A stretch of 64,000 nucleotides of DNA from an uncultured Thermomicrobiaceae bacterium (GTDB lineage: Bacteria; Chloroflexota; Chloroflexia; Thermomicrobiales; Thermomicrobiaceae), in the NCBI GenBank assembly GCA_938082375.1, contig CALKCJ010000005.1:1-64000 (forward strand), given 5' to 3'. Positions 13,506-17,504 of the stretch are shown here, one piece after another; positions within the stretch are counted from its first letter, which is position 1; each line of letters begins with the position of its first letter. The position numbers and the translations under genes were made by a program. Under the pieces are notes generated by a model. It searched no databases and had not been told where the DNA came from. It worked only from the letters and a program-made list of their open reading frames with translations.

Positions 13506-14792
13506 ATGAACGATGTCGCGGTCATGATCCTCGCAGGGGGCCAGGGAGAGCGGTTGAGTATCCTCTCCAGGCAGCGGGCCAAGCCCGCGGTGCCGTTCGC
13601 GGGCAAGTATCGGATCATTGACTTCGCCTTGAGCAACTGCGTCAACTCGGGCCTCCACGATGTCGCCGTCTTGACCCAGTATCGCCCGCATTCCCTCAAC
13701 GAGCACATTGGTCACGGTCGTCCCTGGGATCTCGACCGGGAGCGCAACGGTGGCGTCCTGATCCTGCAACCGTACCTCGGGCGACGACAGTCCGGCTGGT
13801 ATCGCGGCACGGCCGACGCAGTCTACCACAATCTCTTCTACATCACCCGCCGTTCCTACACCGACGTGCTCATCTTGGCCGGAGATCACGTGTACGCAAT
13901 GGATTATCGCCCGATGATCGCGCTCCACCGCCGGAAGCGCGCCGACGTCACCGTAGCGGTGCAGCCGGTGCGCTGGGACGAGGCGAGTCGCTTCGGCGTG
14001 CTGATGGTCGACGATGACGATTGGGTCATCGACTTCGAGGAGAAGCCGGCTCGCCCGCGCAGCAACCTGGCGTCAATGGGCATCTATCTCTTTCGGCGTG
14101 ATGTGCTGCTCGAGCTGTTCTCGGAGCGCTCGCCCGAGGCTCCCGAAATGATCGATTTCGGCCAAGATGTCATCCCGTTCTTGATCCCGACCGGAAAAGT
14201 GCTGGCCTATCGCTTCGAAGGCTACTGGCAGGACGTCGGTACCATCCAGTCGTATTGGGAGGCCAACATGGCGCTCCTGGAGGAGACGCCAGCGCTGAAC
14301 CTGTATGACCCGAACTGGCGGATCCTGACCCGCAGCGAAGAACGGCCGCCGGCCAAGATCATGGAGGGCTCGATCATCGCCCGGAGCCTGGTCTCGAACG
14401 GCTGCATCATCATCCGCGCGCGCGTCGAGCACTCGGTGCTTTCTCCCGGTGTCGTGGTCCACGAGGGGGCGGTGGTTCGCGATTCGATCGTGATGACCGA
14501 TAGCGAGATCGGCGCCGGAGCCGTCGTGGATCGCTGCATTATCGACAAGCATGTGCGGATCGGCGCCGGGAGCCGAGTCGGCTACGGCGACGATCTGACA
14601 CCGAACTGGCTGGAGCCGACCCGACTCAACACCGGGATCACCATTGTCGGACGCAATGCTCGAATACCGCCGGGAGTGACGATTGGCCGCAATGTGCTGA
14701 TCGGTACCGACGTGACCGAGGCTGACTTTGCTTCACCGGTGATCCCGAGCGGGGAGTCGGTCAACCCGATGGTGGCGGTGGTCTGGTCGTGA
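13506..14792 (+). CDS. glgC: Glucose-1-phosphate adenylyltransferase (ADP-glucose pyrophosphorylase)
   Basis: 428 residues. It makes ADP-glucose from ATP and glucose-1-phosphate for glycogen synthesis. The N-terminal nucleotidyltransferase domain has [11 protein letters not shown] and [15 protein letters not shown], then the glucose-1-phosphate region EEKPARP. The C-terminal left-handed beta-helix is visible from its hexapeptide repeats (about 300-415). The ATG at 13506 follows GGAGAGGGG; a GTG 27 bases upstream is less likely. It is the first gene of a three-gene operon: its TGA overlaps the glgA GTG (GTGA). Confidence 0.95.
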
Positions 14793-16360
14793 AGGGTGTG
14801 AGGTCTCCGCGTACACGCGAACCGCTGCACCGGGTCAGCAATGGGTCGCACGGGGAGCTGAGCACAGGTCGCCCCGGGAGGCGGGGAAGCCCGCTCGTCC
14901 TCTTCGCTTCCGTCGAGGTGGCGCCATTTTCCCAGGTTGGTGGCCTCGGCGACGTGGCGGGCTCGTTGCCGACGGCGCTGGCTGAGGCAGGGATTCGGGT
15001 GGTCGTGGTCACCCCCTGGTATGGAGCGCCCGACACGCGCTCCACTGCGGCGGAGCAGGCGGGTGTCACGATCACCGTTCCCGGGCTTGCCGGCCCAGAG
15101 CAGTTCCAAGTGTGGCGCGGCGAACTGAGGAGCGGCGTTCCCGTTCTGTTTCTGGTGAATGCGAACCTCTTTGGAAGCTCGTACGTTTACGTAGCAGAGC
15201 GTGACCGTCAACGCTTCGCTGCTTTTTCTCGGGCGGTCGTGGAGCTCATGCGCGTGTTGCCCGTCGATATTCTGCATGCGAACGATTGGCATACCTGCCC
15301 AGCCGTCATCTGGCACCGGGAACTGCGCTATCGCTCACGCGCGTTGTTTCACCAGCGGAGTGTGCTGACCATCCATAACTTGGCCCACCAGGGGATCACC
15401 GATGTGACGTACGCCAGGGCCCTGGGGTTGGAGGTCGACGAGCTGCTCGACGAGGAGCGGGCCCGCTACCCCGATACGATCAACGTGCTCGCGCGTGGGA
15501 TCCTGGCCGCCGATGCCGTCACGACAGTGAGCCCGAGCTACGCCGAGGAGATCAAGACACCAGCGTTCGGCGAGGGGCTTGACCGGCTCCTACGGCAGCG
15601 GGGTGACCGCCTGTTGGGGATTCTGAACGGCATCGATACCGCGTGGTACAATCCGGCGGCCGACCCGGCCCTGCCCAGTCGTTACACGGTGGAGAACCTG
15701 GAGGGGAAGGCACTCTGCAAGCGCACGCTGCAGCGAGAACTCGACCTGGCAAGTTCATCCGAGTTACCGCTCGTCGGTGTGATCTCACGGCTCGATCGGC
15801 AGAAGGGGATCGATTTGGTCGTCGAGGCGATCGACGAGTTGATCGGCTTGGGAGTGCAAGTAGCTCTCCTAGGAACTGGTGACACGACCCTGGAACGGCA
15901 GATCGCGGAAGCCAGCCGGCGGTATCCGCAACTGGTGGCGAGCGTGCTGCGGTTCGACGCCGAGCTCGCCCGCCGGATCTATGCTGCCAGCGATATCTTC
16001 CTGATGCCGTCCCGGTTTGAGCCATGTGGCATCGGCCAGTTCATCGCTCTCCGCTACGGCGCGGTACCAGTCGTACACCGGACGGGAGGGCTGGCCGATA
16101 CGGTTCAGGAATGGCACGCGCCAAGCGGATCAGGCAATGGGTTCGTGTTCGAGGAGCACACGCCCGAGGCGCTTCTGGCCGCCGTCCGACGCGCCGTCGA
16201 CGTCTTCCAGAAGCCGGTCGAATGGCAACGGCTCGTCAGGAACGCGATGGAGTGCGATGTCTCGTGGTCGCGCTCAGCGCTCGAATACGCTCGGGTCTAC
16301 GACTTCATCCTCGGGCTGGCCACGAGCGCTGGAGCGCCGTCGTCAGCGGCGGAACGATGA
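14789..16360 (+). CDS. glgA: Glycogen synthase, GT5 family, with an altered donor-site lysine
   Basis: 523 residues. It extends alpha-1,4-glucan from a nucleotide-sugar donor. The two Rossmann halves are clear: HANDWHT, GVISRLDRQKG and the C-terminal EPCGIGQF and RTGGLADTV motifs. The N-terminal KxGGL motif reads SQVGGLGDV, so Gln49 replaces the lysine that in E. coli GlgA contacts ADP-glucose. An unusual leader of about 35 residues precedes the first beta strand; the GTG at 14789 is coupled to glgC by a GTGA overlap, but a later start cannot be excluded. The next gene starts 16 bases downstream. Confidence 0.92.
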   Translation: MKGVRSPRTREPLHRVSNGSHGELSTGRPGRRGSPLVLFASVEVAPFSQVGGLGDVAGSLPTALAEAGIRVVVVTPWYGAPDTRSTAAEQAGVTITVPGLAGPEQFQVWRGELRSGVPVLFLVNANLFGSSYVYVAERDRQRFAAFSRAVVELMRVLPVDILHANDWHTCPAVIWHRELRYRSRALFHQRSVLTIHNLAHQGITDVTYARALGLEVDELLDEERARYPDTINVLARGILAADAVTTVSPSYAEEIKTPAFGEGLDRLLRQRGDRLLGILNGIDTAWYNPAADPALPSRYTVENLEGKALCKRTLQRELDLASSSELPLVGVISRLDRQKGIDLVVEAIDELIGLGVQVALLGTGDTTLERQIAEASRRYPQLVASVLRFDAELARRIYAASDIFLMPSRFEPCGIGQFIALRYGAVPVVHRTGGLADTVQEWHAPSGSGNGFVFEEHTPEALLAAVRRAVDVFQKPVEWQRLVRNAMECDVSWSRSALEYARVYDFILGLATSAGAPSSAAER

Positions 16361-16376
16361 GGAGGACGAGGAGTTC

Positions 16377-17504
16377 ATGAAGAAGATGAGCGGAAGGACT
16401 GGCCAGGTCGCTCAGCGCTCAGTCCTCTTCTTGCCTGACCTGGTGGCAGAGCTTGAGTCTGAGGAGCAAGAGTGTTTCCGGTATCTCTTCAGAGTCGATG
16501 CGACGATCGGCGAACTGGTGCTCCCCACCCACCTGCTGGGCTGGGTCGAGCGCTACTTCGGTTCGGCCGAGGCGGTGACTCGCCAGAAAGTGGTGAAGGT
16601 TACCGATCGGTGGACACTCGATGCGACGCTCTTCAACGAGCTTCGAGCCAAGAGGCCGCTCGAAGCTCGCATCCCCGTCGAGCTGGCAGACGAGCTGGCG
16701 AAGACGGCGCCGGATCCCTTCTGTGAACCGGAACTCAACACCCCCGAGGACACCTTCGGGCGGCTCCGTGGCCGCCGGACGCTGACGGCAAGCAACATCG
16801 CCAAGTACGACGGGCTGCATGGGGTCATCATTTTCGAAGAGCACGACCCCCTTGCCTTCGACCAAGACCTGGTCCTTGATGTCCTCGATGTTGCCCAGGC
16901 ATGGTTCATCCGGGCACACGCGAGCGACCCGGAGGCGATTTACCCACTGTTCATGTGGAACTGCCTATGGCGGAGCGGTGCCTCGATCCCCCACGGCCAC
17001 GCGCAGGTCAGCCTCACACGGGGGCTGCACTACGGGAAAGTGGAGCGGCATCGCCGGGCCGCCGAAGCGTACCGCCGCGAATACGGGCGAAATTACTTCG
17101 ACGACTGGTACCGCGTCCACCAGGCACTCGGCCTCGGCCGGCAGGCGAACGAGGTACGCGTGATGGCCAGTCTGGTGCCCCTCAAAGAGAAGGAGCTCAT
17201 GCTCTTTGCCCCTTCATTCGGCCCGGGGTTGGGGCGAGCCATCTACCAGGTACTCCGTTGCCTCGTCGACGACCTGAACGTCGTCTCCTTTAACCTCGTC
17301 ATCTGGTTGCCACCACTGGCCTCGACGGCCGAAGACTGGAGCGACGTCCCGGTCATCGTGCGCGTGGTGGATCGAGGAGACCCGCTAGCACGCACATCAG
17401 ACTTCGGCTCCATGGAGCTGTACGCAGCCAGCGTGGTGGCGAGTGACCCGTTCCGCGTCGCGGAGACGCTCTGGCGGTGTTTCGACCACGAGGGGGCACC
17501 GTGA
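16377..17504 (+). CDS. GalT/HIT-superfamily nucleotidyltransferase or phosphorylase
   Basis: 375 residues. The catalytic signature reads IPHGHAQ (His206, His208, Gln210), the HxHxQ form typical of the galactose-1-phosphate uridylyltransferase branch rather than the HxHxH of HIT hydrolases. The rest resembles GalT-like proteins only in outline. The ATG at 16377 follows GGAGGACGAGGAG and lies 16 bases after glgA, so it is the third gene of the glycogen operon. Location suggests work on ADP-glucose or hexose-1-phosphate, for instance an ADP-glucose phosphorylase as known for a plant GalT-like enzyme. That role is inference; a true GalT is also possible. Confidence 0.75.
   Translation: MKKMSGRTGQVAQRSVLFLPDLVAELESEEQECFRYLFRVDATIGELVLPTHLLGWVERYFGSAEAVTRQKVVKVTDRWTLDATLFNELRAKRPLEARIPVELADELAKTAPDPFCEPELNTPEDTFGRLRGRRTLTASNIAKYDGLHGVIIFEEHDPLAFDQDLVLDVLDVAQAWFIRAHASDPEAIYPLFMWNCLWRSGASIPHGHAQVSLTRGLHYGKVERHRRAAEAYRREYGRNYFDDWYRVHQALGLGRQANEVRVMASLVPLKEKELMLFAPSFGPGLGRAIYQVLRCLVDDLNVVSFNLVIWLPPLASTAEDWSDVPVIVRVVDRGDPLARTSDFGSMELYAASVVASDPFRVAETLWRCFDHEGAP

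Follow-up and report, generated by a model that had tools for sequence, protein, structure and literature searches.

A GalT-superfamily protein, named in neither Pfam nor NCBIfam, encoded behind glgC and glgA in a Thermomicrobiaceae genome

Why does a gene for a GalT-like protein follow directly behind the genes for ADP-glucose and glycogen synthesis? The question is raised by a stretch of 64,000 nucleotides from an uncultured Thermomicrobiaceae bacterium (Chloroflexota; GenBank assembly GCA_938082375.1, contig CALKCJ010000005.1, positions 1 to 64,000; hereafter the window), in which glgC, glgA and a third gene, here called G3, lie in a row on the forward strand. An earlier note on this DNA had described the gene order and its close spacing (a GTGA overlap, then 16 bases), had labelled the third product as GalT/HIT-like, and had suggested that it is an ADP-glucose phosphorylase or catalyzes another nucleotide-sugar exchange step. 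The order and spacing were confirmed in the sequence, and the label was borne out by an H206-G-H208-A-Q210 motif. G3 is a member of the GalT superfamily and belongs to a new family named in neither Pfam nor NCBIfam. The family is real, and its genes are repeatedly found linked to those of sugar-nucleotide glucosyltransferases. In the window's genome we tentatively read G3 as an ADP-glucose phosphorylase.

The G3 family, its active site and its fold

At E ≤ 1, neither Pfam nor NCBIfam offered a family for the G3 protein of the window, and only noise came from PHROGs (E 0.35) and from a single-sequence search of the PDB; four other members of the family also lacked a Pfam GalT match. A search of 400 Chloroflexota genomes returned matches in 80, and these were strong (E < 1e-60) in 69. 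The remaining 11 consisted of a contig-end fragment adjoining glgA (G156) and 10 genomes in which every match was weak and came from a different GalT-like protein. When we scanned one genome per species, 264 of the 303 candidate stretches encoded G3 relatives, and the best 80 of the 264, which were kept, came from Chloroflexota, Rubrobacter and other Actinobacteria, and metagenome-assembled genomes (MAGs) of Bacillota.

Conservation was examined in an alignment of 63 of the 69 strong Chloroflexota members; the six omitted were G043 and G056, which lay outside the set of wide loci, one contig-end fragment, and three sequences interrupted by a stop within the aligned region. In GalT, the second His of the HxHxQ motif is the nucleophile, and arginines lie at the phosphates of the substrate. 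Both motifs are kept almost without exception in G3 (Table 1), N195 and G201 are identical in all 63 sequences, and residue 203 is always Ser (56 sequences) or Thr (7). Position 347 is always acidic (Glu in 56 sequences, Asp in 7), and we take it, from an alignment made through a sister family described below, to lie at or beside the place of the sugar-binding glutamate of GalT. HIT hydrolases such as HINT and FHIT carry an HxHxHxx triad; the third position of the motif is Gln in all 63 G3 sequences, which sets the family apart from these hydrolases. The CxxC metal pair is not kept either (C116 in 34 of 63; Asp at position 113 in 50), and CxxC metal ligands vary within the GalT family. With the full GalT-type active site retained, G3 looks catalytically intact as judged from its sequence.

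The AlphaFold model of G3 reached a predicted local distance difference test score (pLDDT) of 91.7 and a predicted template modelling score (pTM) of 0.90. In a Foldseek search with this model, six chains of Arabidopsis ADP-glucose phosphorylase (At5g18200; 2h39, 1z84 and 1zwj) led the ranking (2h39_B, E 4.3e-14), followed by GalT-type enzymes (E 3.6e-11 and weaker). VIA-align gave Z 24.4 for 2h39_B (root-mean-square deviation (rmsd) 3.2, 275 residues aligned, 20% identity), Z 22.7 for the GalT structure 1gup (rmsd 3.5, 281 aligned, 14% identity), and only Z 10.3 for the yeast Ap4A phosphorylase Apa2 (rmsd 4.2, 197 aligned). The fold of the model thus assigns G3 to the GalT superfamily, with two HIT-like domains, and does not settle its substrate. 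In a G3 profile search, the HxHxQ motif aligned with those of 1z84 (E 0.008), the uridylyltransferase 6k5z (E 0.009), and Apa2 (4i5t, E 0.08).

Among the known systems, At5g18200 is the closest solved fold, and 2h39 holds bound ADP-glucose. Although its HxHxQ and RAKRP motifs align with those of G3, the two proteins share only 15-20% identity in structural alignments and their profile match is marginal; we know of no bacterial operon context for the plant gene. The GalT enzymes (1gup, 1hxq, 6k5z and 5in3) share with G3 the two-HIT-domain fold (Z 20.6-22.7), HxHxQ, RxxRP and an Asn before the Gly-x-Ser loop, whereas G3 has no GalT library match, does not conserve CxxC, stands beside other neighbours and occurs in a genome that lacks galK and GalU. 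Apa2 (4i5t, 4i5v and 4i5w), a phosphorylase of adenylyl substrates, shares HxHxQ and a short motif match but is far weaker as a fold match.

A further relative of the G3 family is a sister GalT-like family of Chloroflexota, A2 (e.g., L098 and L104), which carries the same motifs and matches G3 in a profile-profile comparison (probability 99.9, E 3e-32). All five members tested (L097-L100 and L104) fell below every Pfam cut-off, as did L109. A2 differs from G3 in its cysteine pair of the CPFCP type and in clearly matching the GalT profile (1hxq, E 2.9e-15), and neither glgA nor glgC was found in A2 loci. A2 proteins are about 345 amino acids long, combine the cysteine pair with HPHxQ and match the profile of E. 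coli GalT; they are encoded at L098:493-1527, L097:8225-9256, L100:8287-9309, L104:6504-7529, and other loci.

Gene neighbourhoods and selection

The earlier note had held that its idea would fall if relatives showed no conserved linkage. We scored 147 strong G3 loci, which comprise 133 different sequences with some genomes represented twice, and counted glgA as a neighbour when it lay upstream on the same strand within 700 bases. This rule is strict and overlooks some pairs, so the glgA count is a minimum; one pair missed is that of L053, whose glgA match stops 12 bases short of the G3 match. G3 was preceded by glgA in at least 48 loci and by glgC, with no glgA between, in 12. Linkage therefore recurs in relatives, and the glgC-glgA-G3 trio is not a product of chance. 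The glgA-G3 pairing spans several Chloroflexota families and Bacillota MAGs (L148, L156, L168, L172 and L182). In 16 further loci purH lay upstream of G3; purF and purM commonly accompanied it, and some of these loci had a nicotinate salvage gene behind. A sucrose-phosphate-synthase-like, sucrose-synthase-like or other GT4 enzyme preceded G3 in 9, and 12 loci were too short to score.

When mapped onto a quick maximum-likelihood tree, the label for glgA required 15 changes, at least 8 of them forced by starred branches, against a mean of 34 after shuffling; the glgC and purH labels were clustered, with 3 and 2 changes, respectively. L136, which is sister to the purH clade on this tree, carries purF, purH, glgA and G3 in a row. 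Although the tree is blind to gain versus loss, this order suggests that purH-G3 arose through loss of glgA, and it weakens the purH link as a sign of a purine function, which we had considered. Several sister genera have retained glgC-G3 with glgA gone, and the glgC-G3 pairs in the window's family probably arose likewise by glgA loss, a direction to which the tree is equally blind.

In Rubrobacter-type loci, the gene immediately before G3 encodes an 838-amino-acid fusion in which a domain resembling sucrose-phosphate synthase (TIGR02472, E 1.5e-83, under the cut-off) is joined to a PfkB kinase. Such fusions were seen at L152:2523-6027 and in L144, L159, L162, L166 and L170, and in most of these loci a separate PfkB kinase, or a second copy, is encoded upstream.

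We also compared selection on the three genes by the ratio of nonsynonymous to synonymous change (dN/dS; Nei-Gojobori) between the window and L114, L115 and L031. Values were 0.070-0.095 for G3, 0.056-0.092 for glgC and 0.151-0.211 for glgA, although synonymous differences are large beyond L114 (proportion of synonymous differences, pS, about 0.5). G3 is thus under strong purifying selection, as is glgC, whereas the ratio for glgA is 1.6-3.5 times that of its neighbours and GlgA in the window looks less constrained.

Candidate reactions and the pathway content of the genomes

By analogy with GalT, G3 would act by a ping-pong mechanism in which H208 attacks the nucleotide-sugar and glucose-1-phosphate leaves; phosphate would then remove the nucleotide from the covalent nucleotidyl-histidine. 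In the window's genome, the nucleotide-sugar would most likely be ADP-glucose supplied by the neighbouring GlgC, for an overall reaction of ADP-glucose + Pi <-> ADP + glucose-1-phosphate. Such an enzyme could return unused ADP-glucose to glucose-1-phosphate or, together with a reversible glucosyltransferase such as GlgA, could interconvert glucan and glucose-1-phosphate via ADP-glucose. We give the assignment of G3 as an ADP-glucose phosphorylase, whose reaction, adenine base and direction in the cell we infer, somewhat less than an even chance.

The gene content of the window's family is in line with this assignment. GlgC and GlgE were both present in all 10 genomes of the family, and GlgA over cut-off was missing in five (G174, G341, G359, G385 and G390). 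Neither galactokinase (galK; E ≤ 1e-3) nor GalU nor the glycogen phosphorylase GT35 (both E ≤ 1e-20) was found in any of the 10, the window's own genome included for galK. Because GlgC is present and GalU absent, ADP-glucose is the likely nucleotide-sugar; it is the sole glucose nucleotide with an identified maker in the window's genome and most likely the obvious substrate of G3. Among the 69 G3 genomes (E ≤ 1e-60), 45 had GlgC, 29 had GalU, 9 had both and 4 had neither (G013, G056, G204 and G316), a distribution with p 4e-7. This tendency to carry one or the other was counted within G3 genomes only and may hold across the phylum in general.

Several observations weigh against an ADP-glucose phosphorylase. 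When we modeled A2 as a control, 2h39 was again at the top, in a tie with GalT (Z 28.2 versus 27.5); the fold ranking thus says little on the substrate of G3, and we dropped it as proof. Of the 69 G3 genomes, 24 lack GlgC, so ADP-glucose is not a universal substrate of the family unless other makers exist, and in lineages with GalU and without GlgC its members would need a different substrate, UDP-glucose or one with yet another nucleotide. In three small genomes (G066, G138 and G298; 0.9-1.9 Mb, 95-98% complete), G3 adjoins purH and GalU is present, while GlgA over cut-off, GlgC and GlgE are all missing. No scored neighbour accompanied G3 in 50 of the 147 loci, many of which have several kilobases of flank on both sides, and the neighbours sampled from this group (beta-lactamase-like, trypsin-like, transpeptidase, TPR, RtcB and nucleoside hydrolase) showed no shared theme. 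Furthermore, phosphorolysis of the substrate of the adjoining synthase would be a futile loop unless regulated. The proposal of the earlier note therefore stands in part: the superfamily, the linkage to glycogen genes, At5g18200 as the closest structure and the absence of galK, GalU and GT35 speak for it, while the unspecific structural ranking and the three genomes with G3 and no GlgA, GlgC or GlgE speak against it.

The same evidence bears on other reactions. As an exchange enzyme in the strict GalT sense, G3 would swap the nucleotide between a nucleoside diphosphate-glucose and another sugar-1-phosphate instead of phosphate, which would suit its GalT fold, its full GalT active site and the acidic residue at position 347; however, the window's family, lacking galK, has no known Leloir-type second sugar-1-phosphate, and we consider such an exchange unlikely. 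That G3 is the galactose-1-phosphate uridylyltransferase of the Leloir pathway, placed here by chance, is very improbable. It has the GalT fold and HxHxQ, and galK over cut-off occurs in 44 of the 69 G3 genomes, but it matches no GalT family in Pfam or NCBIfam, its recurrent neighbours are glgA, glgC and purH, and we rejected this role for the window's genome because galK and GalU are both missing there and throughout the window's family. A broader housekeeping role, in which G3 phosphorolyses adenylyl or nucleotidyl compounds (dinucleoside polyphosphates, adenylyl sulfate or nucleotide-sugars generally) and glycogen is one context of several, draws on the purH loci with their purF and purM genes, on a Nudix gene that follows G3 in some of the glgA-G3 loci, and on the three genomes without GlgA, GlgC and GlgE. 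Since Apa2 is distant by fold and the order in L136 shows how purH-G3 can be a remnant after glgA loss, we rate it too as a minor possibility.

It is also conceivable that the genes remain linked merely as a passive remnant of an ancient cluster, with G3 playing no part whatever in glycogen metabolism. The loci without scored neighbours and the survival of G3 after glgA loss would fit, but glgA-G3 recurs in Chloroflexota and Bacillota MAGs with the number of tree changes given above, glgC-G3 is kept after glgA loss, and Rubrobacter-type loci carry another sugar-nucleotide glucosyltransferase at the same place; we hold this to be quite improbable.

If G3 does phosphorolyse ADP-glucose, the glgA-G3 pair might form an ADP-cycled glucan phosphorylase with the net reaction of glycogen phosphorylase and no GT35 enzyme, an extension that we regard as doubtful. 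Reversed GlgA would move glucose from glycogen onto ADP, and G3 would phosphorolyse the resulting ADP-glucose to glucose-1-phosphate and ADP; in Rubrobacter, the sucrose-synthase-like glucosyltransferase-kinase fusion and G3 would do the same for sucrose. GT35 (GlgP/MalP), a protein unrelated to G3, would share its net reaction with this couple. GlgA over cut-off was present in 241 of the 400 genomes, and among these GT35 occurred in none of the 29 in which glgA and G3 are neighbours, in 18 of 26 with G3 elsewhere and in 60 of 186 without strong G3. The contrast between 0/29 and 78/212 for all other GlgA genomes gives p of about 1e-5 with kinship ignored, or 1.5e-5 when G204, where glgA and G3 stand about 2 kb apart, is excluded; the starred branches of the tree supply only two independent pairs, not enough to test the association. 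G3 genomes overall show no deficit of GT35 (19/69 versus 103/331), and this count, with so few independent pairs, does not carry G3 as a stand-in for GT35. A stand-in for GlgC, suggested by 16 of the 29 glgA-G3 genomes that lack GlgC, was also rejected, because GlgA without GlgC is equally common without G3 (82/186 versus 20/55, p 0.35).

Two reviews report that At5g18200 phosphorolyses ADP-glucose (PMC11066809, PMC6329318), and one of the two, from 2024, calls its function unknown (PMC11066809 / PMC6329318). In the titles and abstracts that we searched, there was no bacterial ADP-glucose-phosphorolysing enzyme and no bacterial GalT-like gene beside glgA, and the accessible part of a 2024 review of prokaryotic alpha-glucan enzymes contains no mention of ADP-Glc phosphorylase, phosphorolysis of ADP, or Chloroflexi (PMC11046441). 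A recurrent bacterial pairing with glgA, glgC or another glucosyltransferase would give ADP-glucose phosphorolysis a testable context. It would also put a name on a family held by neither Pfam nor NCBIfam and could reveal another route between glycogen and glucose-1-phosphate.

Locus layout, the GlgA motif and other observations

The features of the locus are listed in Table 1. The genome of the window (3.36 Mb, 99.97% complete) has a Thermomicrobiaceae MAG, bacterium HR26 and Thermalbibacter longus as its nearest named relatives. The glgC/glgA overlap lies at 14789-14792, where the glgC stop TGA (14790-14792) shares bases with the glgA start GTG (14789-14791). Behind the glgA stop (16358-16360) and a purine-rich stretch, G3 starts with the ATG at 16377; its open reading frame was listed from 16017, far upstream of this conserved start. 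A promoter scan found none in the glgC-glgA-G3 region, terminator-like matches numbered 6 against 2.3 expected with none directly behind G3, and a plasmid search gave no match.

Table 1. Coordinates of glgC, glgA, G3 and their motifs in the window.
Feature	Position	Strand	Evidence
glgC, glucose-1-phosphate adenylyltransferase, 428 amino acids	13506..14792	+	NCBIfam NF003670 E 1.9e-145 and TIGR02091 E 9.5e-138, both above cut-off
glgA, glycogen synthase, ADP-glucose type, 523 amino acids	14789..16360	+	TIGR02095 E 4.9e-149 (above cut-off); Pfam Glyco_transf_5 E 2.6e-65
Codon CAG, GlgA Q49 in place of the KxGGL lysine (SQVGGL)	14933..14935	+	sequence; comparison of 48 motifs
16-base gap, purine-rich, ribosome-binding-like sequence aggaggacgaggag	16361..16376	+	sequence
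G3 (gene 3), 375-amino-acid GalT-superfamily protein of a family without a name	16377..17504	+	AlphaFold model, fold search, 63-sequence alignment
RAKRP motif, G3 residues 90-94	16644..16658	+	R90 63/63, R93 62/63, P94 62/63; aligns with ARAKRP of At5g18200 (1z84)
HGHAQ motif, G3 residues 206-210, presumed nucleophile H208	16992..17006	+	H206, H208 and Q210 each 63/63

The KxGGL motif of GlgA is linked to ADP-glucose binding according to a review (PMC4919380). The earlier note had reported an altered donor motif in the GlgA of the window, which is indeed the case, and had brought it into its reading of G3; that the motif explains the gene found no support. Among 48 GlgA proteins encoded near G3, the first position of the motif is Lys in 39, Arg in seven from Herpetosiphon-type loci, Gln in the window and His in its nearest relative L114, whereas the slightly more distant L115 and L031 retain the lysine. 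The change away from Lys or Arg is thus confined to the window's species and L114, and G3 elsewhere adjoins lysine-bearing GlgAs; we therefore rejected the altered motif as the explanation of G3.

The window's genome also encodes GlgB, a TreS-maltokinase fusion and GlgE. These were identified by Pfam on contig 38 (L113:3108-19334, - strand), in a cluster that, with the remaining members assigned by eye, comprises TreY, a GH57-like protein, TreZ, GlgB, MalQ, the TreS-maltokinase fusion and GlgE. A small Nudix protein is encoded behind glgA-G3 in L053, L059, L065 and L066 (PF00293, E 7.9e-5 for L065). In Herpetosiphon-type genomes, a radical SAM gene of the STM4011 family (NF038073; L045:11542-12405) lies just upstream of glgA-G3 in a small conserved cluster, and in Rubrobacter taiwanensis (L192:5051-6019) an inosine-uridine nucleoside hydrolase gene stands directly before G3.

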